This document shows, one piece after another, positions 2,102-5,030 of a stretch of 5,030 bases of DNA. Position numbers and translations under genes: made by a program. Position 1 is the first letter of the stretch, and each line of letters opens with the position of its first letter. The notes under the pieces were generated by a model. That model had not been told where the DNA came from. It searched no databases and worked only from the letters and a program-made list of their open reading frames with translations. The stretch is from a candidate division TA06 bacterium SM23_40 (GTDB taxonomy: Bacteria; LJUI01; SM1-40), in the NCBI GenBank assembly GCA_001303705.1, contig LJUI01000174.1, positions 1 through 5,030 of the forward strand. Reading direction: 5' to 3'.

Positions 2102-2573
2102 TCTACTCCCCCGGAACTGGTCTGATCCTCTGCTACTGGTCTGCCCCCCTGCAGCTGGTCTGCCCCTCTGGGGTTGGTCTGCTTCGGTGCAACTCGTCTA
2201 CTCGTCTGAAGCTGGTCTGCACCGCTGGACCCGGTCTGCACCGCCGGACCTCGTCTGGTGCTCTGCTGCTGGTCTGCCCTTGTGAAGCTGATCTGCCCCT
2301 ATGCACCTGGTCTGCTTCGGTGCAACTGATCTACTCGTGCAGAGCTTGTCTACCACGCTGAGGCTGGTCTGCTACGCTGGAGCTGGTCTACCCCTCTGGA
2401 ACTGGTCTGCCCCTCCGGAGCTGATCTGCCCCGCTGGAACTGGTCTGCCCCTCTGGAACTGGTCTACCCCTCTGGAACTGGTCTGCCCCTGTGGAGCTGA
2501 TCTGCCCCTCTGGAGCCGGCCTGGCGCTCCGGAGCCGGTCTGGCTCTTTCGGGTCCGTCTACCACGAGGCTTG
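2102..2573. repeat. 19-bp tandem array, 24 in-phase units plus a shortened end unit
   Basis: Read on the plus strand, the consensus is TCTGCCCCTCTGGAACTGG. Units start at 2102 and every 19 bases after that up to 2539, and a shortened unit follows at 2558-2573. I laid out all 24 by eye and found substitutions but no insertion or deletion in any of them. The most alike units lie at 2368-2519: the unit at 2444 equals the consensus, and those at 2387 and 2463 are identical to each other. Units at both ends are more diverged. Because 19 is not a multiple of three, the array cannot be a simple coding repeat. It fills the space between a decayed acetyltransferase fragment and the leader of the RimJ/RimL-like gene. 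The 81 bases after it (2574-2654) show nothing I recognise. Its role is unknown: it could be a neutral minisatellite or a set of protein-binding sites. Confidence 0.95.
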
Positions 2574-2654
2574 TCTGCGAGGCGGTTCTGTCGGAATGCG
2601 CGATCCCGCTTGGACTCGACAAGGATCAGATGCAGCGGTCAGCGCCACCTCGCA

Positions 2655-2840
2655 TCAGTCGCGCGGCATGTACGGGCCGCCCGATCCCGTGAGGAGGCAG
2701 CCCGGCCTCTCGGTGGCGTACGCGATTCCGGTTCGCAGGATCCCACCCGGGATCCGTTCTCTGTTCCAGGCGATGCACGAGACAGTGCTTCTGGCAGTGC
2801 TCCCGGCGCTGCTTCAGGAACGCGCAGGCGAGAGGAATCG
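2655..2840 (-). pseudogene. Decayed C-terminal fragment of a GNAT acetyltransferase
   Basis: This stretch aligns base by base with the 3' part of the acetyltransferase gene at the right edge (about 4709-4855). Shared words include TCTGTTCCAGGC, CGCGCAGGCGAG, GATTCCGG and CGATCCC, at the same spacing. The minus-strand translation keeps the family signature in damaged form (LACAFLK, then LEQRTDPGWDPAN, compared with LACALLK and LEQKIDPHWDAAN). Relative to the intact copy it has one-base deletions near 2713 and 2731 and a 36-base expansion at 2769-2816. The position matching the intact stop codon, TCA on the plus strand, is present at 2655-2657. The N-terminal two thirds are missing: similarity fades right at the stop codon of the TerB-like gene (2841). 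It is most likely the remnant of a paralogue or of a partial duplication, since the copies are too diverged for a recent event. Confidence 0.75.
2769..2816 (-). repeat. 12-bp tandem repeat, four copies, inside the acetyltransferase remnant
   Basis: On the plus strand the units are GGCGATGCACGA, GACAGTGCTTCT, GGCAGTGCTCCC and GGCGCTGCTTCA. The intact acetyltransferase gene has a single matching unit, GGCAGTGCTTCA, at 4825-4836. The expansion adds exactly 36 bases (12 codons), so it did not itself break the frame. Twelve bases encode four residues, about one helical turn, in the helix that follows the acetyl-CoA loop. Confidence 0.7.
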
Positions 2841-3260
2841 CTAGCCGCCAAGTATCCCTTGGGCACCCTCTGGGTCGATCCAGAAACCGTCCCGAAGCCG
2901 CTCCAGCAACGCTCCTTCTCTCTCCGATACGGTGTCCGCTCCAGCCAGCCCGCATGCCATCCTAAAGACTTCGACTCGCTGGTTAGGGGTCAGGATCTTA
3001 TTGACAGCCTGGATCAGACATTCGATACCTTCATCGGTGAGGGCCGACTCTTCACAGGGGAGCGTGTGGAATATCTTATTGTATGCAAGCCCCATGAGAT
3101 TCCCGAACTCCACGCGGTCACAGTGCTCGAAGATATCGAGATGTCTCACCTGTTCATAGAGATAATCCCGTTCTTCCTTCGTGCCGCACTTATCCGCAGT
3201 GCAGACGGCCCATGCAACTGCTATGAATGCTTCTGCCGGCGTTTTGAACTCGATAGTCAT
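2841..3260 (-). CDS. TerB-like (tellurite-resistance TerB family) protein
   Basis: The protein has 139 residues and is predicted to be all helical and cytosolic, with no signal peptide. It resembles the TerB family. A first half reads EAFIAVAWAVCTADKCGTKEE (10-30), where the family usually has A-D-G followed by acidic residues. A second half reads LTPNQRVEVFRMACGLAGAD and then SEREGALLERL (90-122), matching the family's second A-D-G-x-x-x-x-E-E block. Both ADG sites deviate here (ADK and ADT), so metal binding through these acidic loops may be weakened. TerB-like domains occur in tellurite and stress-response clusters and in many stand-alone proteins of unknown role. No other ter gene is present, so tellurite resistance should not be assumed. 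I chose the ATG at 3260 over an in-frame GTG at 3275 because the ribosome binding site lies between them. The leader carries a strong hairpin. Confidence 0.75.
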   Translation of the reverse strand: MTIEFKTPAEAFIAVAWAVCTADKCGTKEERDYLYEQVRHLDIFEHCDRVEFGNLMGLAYNKIFHTLPCEESALTDEGIECLIQAVNKILTPNQRVEVFRMACGLAGADTVSEREGALLERLRDGFWIDPEGAQGILGG

Positions 3261-3264
3261 GCTC

Positions 3265-3270
3265 CCTCCT
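3265..3270 (-). promoter_or_regulatory. Ribosome binding site of the TerB-like gene
   Basis: On the minus strand this reads AGGAGG, 4 bases before the ATG at 3260. It lies inside the alternative longer reading from GTG 3275, so that longer start is unlikely. Confidence 0.75.
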
Positions 3271-3276
3271 CTCACC

Positions 3277-3317
3277 TGAGCAATTGTGGTGGCAAAAGTC
3301 CACCACTTATTTGCTCA
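3277..3317 (-). promoter_or_regulatory. Two-part hairpin in the leader of the TerB-like gene
   Basis: TGAGCAA at 3277-3283 pairs with TTGCTCA at 3311-3317, and inside it GTGGTGG at 3286-3292 pairs with CCACCAC at 3300-3306. This gives 14 perfect pairs around a 7-base loop, separated by a small asymmetric internal loop. The structure ends 6 bases before the AGGAGG site of the TerB-like gene. No T-run follows on either strand, so a terminator is less likely than a leader structure or a DNA operator. Its function is inferred from position only. Confidence 0.6.
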
Positions 3318-3397
3318 CCCAGGGCCAATAGAACGACCGACCCTATGTGCCGCATGTTGCCAGAGCCCGCCTGGCCGCACGCTACCGCCCCTACCCC

Positions 3398-3937
3398 CTA
3401 CTCAATCAACAAGAACGCATATCGATTCATCGGCTGGTCGTACCTCGAAAGAACCTCAATGGGAAACCCATGCCGTCGCACGGTGGAGAAGACGTCTACC
3501 GCTAGGCCCTCTGCGGTCGGCCGGGCAGTCTCCGGTTTGATGCATTCCTCTCTCACGCTGGAGCACTCGGGGCAAAAACTGCACGAACTCATGGGGAGCA
3601 GAAACGCCTTCTCGTACCCCGAGAGAAAGACCTCTCTTTCGAGCTCCAACAGCCCTTCGTACACGGACCTACTCCATGCGCGCCGTTCCTCCAGGCTATC
3701 GACCTGCTTATAGAACCGGAAGACTACCACCGTCGAGTACTCGCCGAAGAACTGGCGGCAGTCCGCGACCGACGGCACGTTCGGGGGACAGCACGCGTGC
3801 CTCCCGTAATCGTCGCAGCCGTACTCGCACTTCATACGGACCCACTGGGCGACAACGATAGTCCTGGCGTCGATCCACTTGAACTCTGTGTATCCCCGCT
3901 CATGGAACAGCGCATCAAGAGCTTTGCGGTCTGCCAT
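3398..3937 (-). CDS. DUF2284 putative metal-binding protein
   Basis: The 179-residue protein carries the cysteine pattern of DUF2284 (COG5423, predicted metal-binding). The first block is CEYGCDDYGRHACCPPNVPS, with cysteines 37, 41, 49 and 50. The second is CSFCPECSSVREEC, with cysteines 119, 122, 125 and 132, followed by the family's KPETARPTAEGLAVDVFSTV segment. The second block looks like a 4Fe-4S or zinc site, but its ligand is unproven. Family members are found mainly in anaerobes, often near redox or corrinoid proteins, and no reaction is established. The ATG at 3937 has GGAG 10 bases upstream (3948-3951). A TTG at 3943 would give two more residues with a spacing of 4 bases and cannot be excluded. 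It follows the ferredoxin-type gene by 199 bases, a gap holding a hairpin and a direct repeat. A weak GCCAG/CTGGC inverted repeat lies just past its stop, at 3359-3375. Confidence 0.85.
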   Translation of the reverse strand: MADRKALDALFHERGYTEFKWIDARTIVVAQWVRMKCEYGCDDYGRHACCPPNVPSVADCRQFFGEYSTVVVFRFYKQVDSLEERRAWSRSVYEGLLELEREVFLSGYEKAFLLPMSSCSFCPECSSVREECIKPETARPTAEGLAVDVFSTVRRHGFPIEVLSRYDQPMNRYAFLLIE

Positions 3938-4000
3938 AGCCAATCCACTCCGTTCGCTGGAGACCTGTTTCCGCCCGGGACGAGATGCGGTTCAAGTTCA

Positions 4001-4136: not shown

Positions 4137-4682
4137 TCATTGTCTGTGTACCATCCGGATAGACCCCTCGGGACAGACATCCACGCAGAGGCCGCACCCA
4201 TAGCACCTGTCGCGGTCGACGACCAACTCCCCGTCGTCCGTCTTACGAGCGCCGAAGTAGCAGACCTCGGTACATGCACCGCAGGCAGCGCAGAGCTCCG
4301 GGTCACTCTCCTGGACGAGGCGACCCTTGTCACACACATCGCTCGGGTCCAGGAAATAGACGCAGCAGTCGTCGCAACAGAAGCAGATCCCGTCCACGCG
4401 TGTCCGATCATCGCTCCGGAATGGGCGGGTGACGAGATGGCAGGTCTCTGCTTCGCGGAAGATCTCTTCCACATCCGCCAGCGCGATCTCCCGCCCGCCC
4501 GAGCCGCTCATCCCTATGTCATCGTAGAATACGAGGCAGAGATCGATCCGCGAGCGGTCGCACTGCCCTCGCCCCTCGCGGCAGCCGCAGTTGGAGACCC
4601 AGAATCGGTCACGACCCCGAATGAGTTCCCGGGCCTCGTCACGAGTACACACGAAGTGCATTGCGGGTACTTGCATATCCAT
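4137..4682 (-). CDS. Ferredoxin-type protein with two 4Fe-4S motifs and a cysteine-rich N-terminal domain
   Basis: The protein has 181 residues. The C-terminal third is a two-cluster ferredoxin domain: CAACGACTEVC (cysteines 131, 134, 137, 141) and CYGCGLCVDVCP (160, 163, 166, 170). The N-terminal part has NCGCREG (32, 34), cysteines 41 and 49, a GGREIALADVEEIFREAE helix, and CFCCDDCC (100-107). This arrangement recurs in ferredoxin-like proteins of anaerobes, where the second block is usually close to C-N-C-C-x-C-C. The protein should be a cytosolic electron carrier or an electron-transfer subunit, possibly holding an extra metal site in its front half; its partner is unknown. The start at ATG 4682 is chosen because AGGAG lies 6 bases upstream, whereas the longer readings from 4709 or 4712 have no comparable site. 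It follows the acetyltransferase stop by 26 bases, which suggests one transcript. Confidence 0.85.
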   Translation of the reverse strand: MDMQVPAMHFVCTRDEARELIRGRDRFWVSNCGCREGRGQCDRSRIDLCLVFYDDIGMSGSGGREIALADVEEIFREAETCHLVTRPFRSDDRTRVDGICFCCDDCCVYFLDPSDVCDKGRLVQESDPELCAACGACTEVCYFGARKTDDGELVVDRDRCYGCGLCVDVCPEGSIRMVHRQ

Positions 4683-4688
4683 GATTAG

Positions 4689-4693
4689 CTCCT
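4689..4693 (-). promoter_or_regulatory. Ribosome binding site of the ferredoxin-type gene
   Basis: On the minus strand this reads AGGAG, 6 bases before the ATG at 4682. It lies downstream of the alternative starts at 4709 and 4712, and so selects the shorter protein. Confidence 0.7.
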
Positions 4694-4708
4694 GATAAGA
4701 ATTTCGCA

Positions 4709-5030
4709 TCACTCTCGCAGCACATAGGCGTCATACGATCCCATGTATACGTATCCGAGTTTCTCGGCCAGCGTGCACGATTCCGGGTTTGCAGCATCCC
4801 AATGGGGATCTATCTTCTGTTCCAGGCAGTGCTTCAGGAGCGCGCAGGCGAGGGCGGTGGCGACACCCCCGGTGCGGTGCGCGGGCACCACGTAGATGCT
4901 CACTTCGATCCCCTTGCTGCAGACGAGCGAGGACCACGCCGCGCCGATCATCTCGTTCCCCTCCTCGAGGAAGAAACCGCATCCCCGCTCCACGAAGTCC
5001 TCTGCCGAATCAAAACAGGAGAGGTCGAGA
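4709..5030 (-). CDS. GNAT acetyltransferase, C-terminal part (start lies beyond the right edge)
   Basis: The frame is open from the window edge: 106 codons to the TGA at 4709. An internal GTG at 4993 could be mistaken for a start, but the residues before it (FDSAEDF) continue the family pattern. The core is an acetyl-CoA-binding segment, VVPAHRTGGVATALACALLK, with the R-x-G-G-x-A loop. It is followed by LEQKIDPHWDAAN and SCTLAEKLGY. The W-D-A-x-N and L-A-x-K-L-G-Y pair is characteristic of the GNAT_acetyltran group (PF12746 as I recall it), which differs from the RimJ/RimL-like enzyme at 1511-2071. These enzymes acetylate small amines or antibiotics in characterised cases; the substrate here is unknown. 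The ferredoxin-type gene starts 26 bases later. A decayed copy of this gene's 3' part lies at 2655-2840. Confidence 0.85.
   Translation of the reverse strand, partial: LDLSCFDSAEDFVERGCGFFLEEGNEMIGAAWSSLVCSKGIEVSIYVVPAHRTGGVATALACALLKHCLEQKIDPHWDAANPESCTLAEKLGYVYMGSYDAYVLRE

Follow-up and report, generated by a model that had tools for sequence, protein, structure and literature searches.

An array of 23 clear tandem 19-bp units without an indel occupies positions 2113–2549 (+ strand) of the window, the whole stretch of DNA that was analyzed, which is one entire contig (5,030 bp; C158) of a 2.88-Mb, 189-contig genome of approximately 90% completeness. The array is real and ordinary, and its regularity is mildly unusual. 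It is very probably a non-coding minisatellite private to this locus, set in a decayed intergenic region that is flanked by a TerB-like gene and a GNAT acetyltransferase gene. As expected of a minisatellite, it consists of head-to-tail units of a size within approximately 10–100 bp in at least four copies, is non-coding, and displays signs of gain and loss of whole units.

Structure and genomic setting of the array

Analysis with TRF identified a period of 19 bp with 22.6 copies, 71% matches and 0% indels at 2113–2542, and a second period of 133 bp (7 × 19), also with 0% indels, is superimposed on it at 2111–2448. When the sequence was cut into 19-bp segments starting at 2113 and each was aligned with the consensus, GGAGCTGGTCTGCCCCTCT (reverse complement, AGAGGGGCAGACCAGCTCC), 23 units were obtained and the register was kept through 2549. 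The self-identity of the array is 0.71, 0.69 and 0.70 at lags of 19, 38 and 57, respectively, compared with 0.10–0.41 at other lags, and the maximum identity over lags of 17–22 in 2000 shuffles of the array bases was 0.36. One degenerate unit adjoins each edge on the same strand, that on the left (2094–2112) matching the consensus at 11 of 19 positions and that on the right (2550–2568) at 9 of 19; the next unit position, starting at 2569 beyond the right edge unit, matches at only 5 of 19. A first-pass annotation of this DNA, which described 24 units holding phase over approximately 456 bp and proposed TRF and a per-unit alignment as the check, was thus fair in its count, and both analyses returned the 19-bp period with zero indels.

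All of the genes in the window point left (minus strand). From the right end, ORF and Pfam analyses identified a GNAT gene (PF12746; 4709–5029), a gene for a 4Fe-4S protein (4137–4712), a DUF2284 gene (3398–3943) and the TerB-like gene (2841–3275), which is separated by the intergenic region from the second GNAT gene (Acetyltransf_3, PF13302; 1511–2071). Between the TerB-like gene and the array lies a decayed duplicate of the PF12746 GNAT gene (2626–2840, minus strand) with a short internal insertion, recognizable by DNA copies at 2730–2776 (77%) and 2798–2832 (86%). The PF13302 GNAT gene begins with a GTG start approximately 30 bp from the end of the array, with a Shine-Dalgarno-like sequence, GAGGAGGG, approximately 6 nt upstream of the start; beyond this gene are an OMP beta-barrel-like protein, slightly below the Pfam cut-off, and then a small ORF. 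A 37-bp unit is repeated downstream of the PF13302 GNAT gene at 1437–1525 (2.4 copies, 86%); each copy is a near palindrome (AGAACGG...CCGTTCT), and a third, diverged copy overlaps the stop codon of the gene.

The 19-bp unit was found at no second site in its own genome by BLAST, pattern or profile searches, and it was not found in 385 other genomes, in plasmids or phages, or, as an exact pattern, in IMG/VR. No second genome of the same phylum was among the genomes compared. A search for relatives via the PF13302 GNAT gene identified none among the searched genome contigs, and the relatives of the DUF2284 protein came only from Aminicenantes, Phycisphaerales and others, with 36–65% identity.

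Whole-unit duplication and strict phase

Two blocks of two units each, at 2170–2207 and 2303–2340 (both + strand), lie 133 bp apart and have rare variants in common. Among the 253 unit pairs scored for shared rare variants, the pairs 2189/2322 and 2170/2303 ranked first and second, and the pair 2132/2265, likewise 133 bp apart, fell within the top ten; a permutation test for a lag of seven units gave p = 0.006, or approximately 0.08 after correction for 14 lags. These common variants, which can be read directly from the sequence, mark a duplication of a whole-unit block of approximately seven units, and an event of this kind preserves the 19-bp phase. The sequence also displays a gradient, in which the seven units at 2379–2511 (+ strand) form the most homogeneous run, each matching the consensus at 17–18 of 19 positions, and divergence is greatest at the edges; this interior run is probably the most recent amplification. 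Both the sharing at 133 bp and the homogeneous interior with decayed edges are expected if whole units are gained and lost.

A chance short duplication most probably founded the array, which would then have grown by slippage or unequal exchange that added or removed whole 19-bp units and, at least once, a block of approximately seven units. Misalignment between copies would be in register, so that gains and losses of copies would leave the phase of 19 bp intact; point mutations would meanwhile accumulate in the units, and the edges would decay. An array formed in this way presumably serves no selected function. The overall heterogeneity of the columns fits a neutral simulation (P = 0.33–0.57). 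Columns 5–11 (CTGGTCT) are conserved as a block above the usual neutral simulation (p of approximately 0.02–0.03), and columns 9–11 (TCT) are almost invariant over the units; this conserved core offers a small opening for a reading in terms of selection.

The absence of indels was compared with that in other diverged arrays of the genome, the siblings described below; for this comparison, every array was aligned, under a strict gap penalty, with its own consensus taken as cyclic. The 19 comparable siblings contain 23 indels per 595 substitutions. The window array has 85 substitutions and 0 indels, against approximately 3.3 indels expected at the sibling ratio (Poisson P = 0.037). Simulation of block duplication with substitutions and with indels at the sibling ratio gave a probability of no indel of 0.09–0.12, which fell to 0–0.05 when the indel/substitution ratio was set to 0.08 or more, twice the sibling ratio. 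Since detection by lag favors indel-free siblings, the true indel ratio may be higher and the window array more unusual. The zero indel count, with a P of approximately 0.04–0.12, is borderline, not exceptional, and suggestive at most. Of the 19 comparable siblings, 8 are likewise indel-free; given these other arrays, strict phase in a diverged array is by itself no argument for selection.

Sibling arrays in the genome

The occurrence of similar arrays was analyzed in a sample of 1.29 Mb (45% of the genome), taken as stretches, in which genes were called with a simple dicodon model that recovers the window genes with starts differing by up to 39 bases. Intergenic regions with a length of 110 bp or longer were scanned for periodicity with a threshold calibrated on dinucleotide shuffles. 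Diverged short-period arrays were identified in 46 of the 429 regions, compared with 0.3 expected from the shuffles, and extrapolation from these 46 gives an estimate of approximately one hundred diverged private arrays for the whole genome. Their periods range from 13 to 44 bp, save for a single hit of 11 bp, which consists of a run of N. The consensus units look unrelated to one another, with the exception of one pair (L071/L089), and nearly all are private; the best resemblance of any sibling unit to the window unit is 68%. The window array has the highest copy number among the sampled arrays, and the closest sibling in size is a 470-bp intergenic array at L083:3056-3530 that is composed of alternating 17- and 18-bp units, most of which contain GATC (24 GATC). 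GATC was considered as a motif common to the arrays and rejected, since it looked enriched in the consensuses but is frequent genome-wide, and the enrichment all but vanishes relative to a Markov expectation (1.12).

The genes beside the arrays, as far as they were checked, are unrelated and include those for ClpB-type AAA, secretin, cytochrome c, FG-GAP and ChaN-like proteins. Several siblings lie directly upstream of a start codon, yet a rule of start-codon proximity was rejected: the array is nearer the start in 19 of 36 co-directional cases (p = 0.49), which is no preference. Nor were arrays enriched by gene orientation among the sampled intergenic regions. In ten other genomes, of which approximately 4–40 kb each was sampled, arrays of non-coding period occur at approximately 19/Mb, a figure that leaves out records resembling runs of N, compared with 36/Mb here, and those in the ten genomes are concentrated in two of them.

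Alternative explanations and known repeat systems

The array could instead be an iteron-like or partition/centromere-like series of phased sites to which an oligomeric protein binds, with both the core CTGGTCT(G/A)C and the spacing of 19 bp kept by selection, but this explanation is unlikely. It accords with the 23 units without an indel, with the near-invariant TCT columns and the seven-column core, and with a period that falls within the iteron range of 17–22 bp; however, the unit occurs at no other site in the genome, a result of the genome-wide consensus search proposed in the first-pass annotation that counts against iteron-like selection for spacing. No replication family is represented among the window proteins, as had been remarked earlier from the sequence, and no Rep_3 (PF01051) was found in the genome. 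DnaA-box matches are at chance number, with no cluster and none inside the array, and no AT-rich segment adjoins the array, the GC content of which is 0.62–0.65; the idea of an iteron origin thus loses the Rep gene, the AT-rich unwinding element and the DnaA boxes by which it was examined. In addition, 19 bp correspond to 1.8 helical turns, so that neighboring sites would point to different sides of the helix, and the many siblings with unrelated units are not explained by a single binding protein. The phase and CTGGTCT could be selected via cooperative binding by a putative protein, and the other arrays could be comparable private docking arrays for related proteins, but this version is very doubtful. 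The missing Rep, DnaA, AT-rich and RNA-fold features leave room for binding by some as yet unnamed candidate protein, and a bound protein, if true, would mean a new class of nucleoprotein array. Because dozens of similar private arrays lie between unrelated genes, ordinary repeat DNA is more likely than a protein-docking site. Between the homogenization and the selection for spacing that had been put forward as alternatives, the seven-unit duplication, the gradient from interior to edges and the sibling arrays favor whole-unit exchange, whereas the unique unit, the siblings without a common motif, the lack of origin features and the borderline indel statistic (P of approximately 0.04–0.12) argue against selection.

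The end of the array approximately 30 bp before the GTG, just upstream of the Shine-Dalgarno-like sequence, would place the promoter of the PF13302 GNAT gene probably within or beyond the array, and the array could then be a transcribed 5′ leader that tunes expression by copy number, as a phase-variable VNTR, or by RNA structure. On the coding strand A exceeds T in the window array and, weakly, in the siblings (0.10 vs. -0.01, p = 0.0035), which is compatible with such a leader. Its likelihood is quite low, given that the siblings are no nearer starts than stops, that the fold of the leader RNA is near that of shuffles (z = -1.49), and that searches in and at the array gave neither a promoter-like site nor an Rfam match; moreover, with diverged units, rapid slippage as between perfect repeats is unlikely. 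The DNA fold of the array is ordinary (z = -0.13), and no inverted repeats were found in or at it. An origin as the frame-lost relic of a protein repeat gene, with 57 bp (3 × 19) encoding 19 residues, is extremely improbable. A + strand frame (2301–3713) is indeed open over much of the array, but it extends through the TerB-like and DUF2284 genes on the opposite strand and is without the codon-position GC pattern of the genome, and identity at a lag of 57 is no higher than at 19 or 38. With a period that is not a multiple of three and an overlapping frame without coding composition, the array is not protein-coding, as the earlier reading had it. A CRISPR array was ruled out, since no spacers separate the units, and their sequence varies from copy to copy.

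Plasmid iterons are direct repeats of 17–22 bp in strict phase, and the array resembles them in its 19-bp direct repeats and strict phase; it differs in being without a Rep gene, an AT-rich unwinding element and DnaA boxes and in having more units and more divergence than is typical. The bacterial VNTR/minisatellite loci (MIRU-type) used in strain typing are intergenic tandem units that change in copy number by whole units; as a rule, these units are almost identical and vary from strain to strain. The window array is likewise intergenic with tandem units but is only 71% self-similar. Prokaryotes whose genomes carry many dispersed satellites that are unique, unrelated and in part non-coding, such as Methanobrevibacter ruminantium and Clostridioides difficile, have been surveyed (Subirana and Messeguer, 2019; PMC6749651). 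The array and its siblings fit this kind, as tandem units within 10–200 nt in at least four copies that are unique to their locus, with many unrelated arrays per genome, and probably stand at its high end in divergence and density: they are more diverged than the regularity filter of the survey probably allows, and their density of 46 arrays per 1.29 Mb, although high, was measured by a laxer criterion. This genome is a useful place for the study of the birth and decay of bacterial minisatellites.

Several other repeats were observed in the genome. A dispersed 28-bp sequence, GGGGACGTTGGTAGGTTCAGAAGGTTAC, has 76 occurrences when as many as 3 mismatches are allowed, compared with 0 for the reversed control, including sites at L089:10424-10601 and L071:14983-15079, often as pairs approximately 31–75 bp apart and in both orientations; it appears to resemble a REP-type element. 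A weak, below-cut-off match to a Y1 transposase was found on C134. Within coding sequence, L043, L077, L086, L093 and L094 contain large repeats with lengths of 156 bp and 279 bp, and the L086 gene with 279-bp repeats encodes Ig-like (He_PIG) domains.
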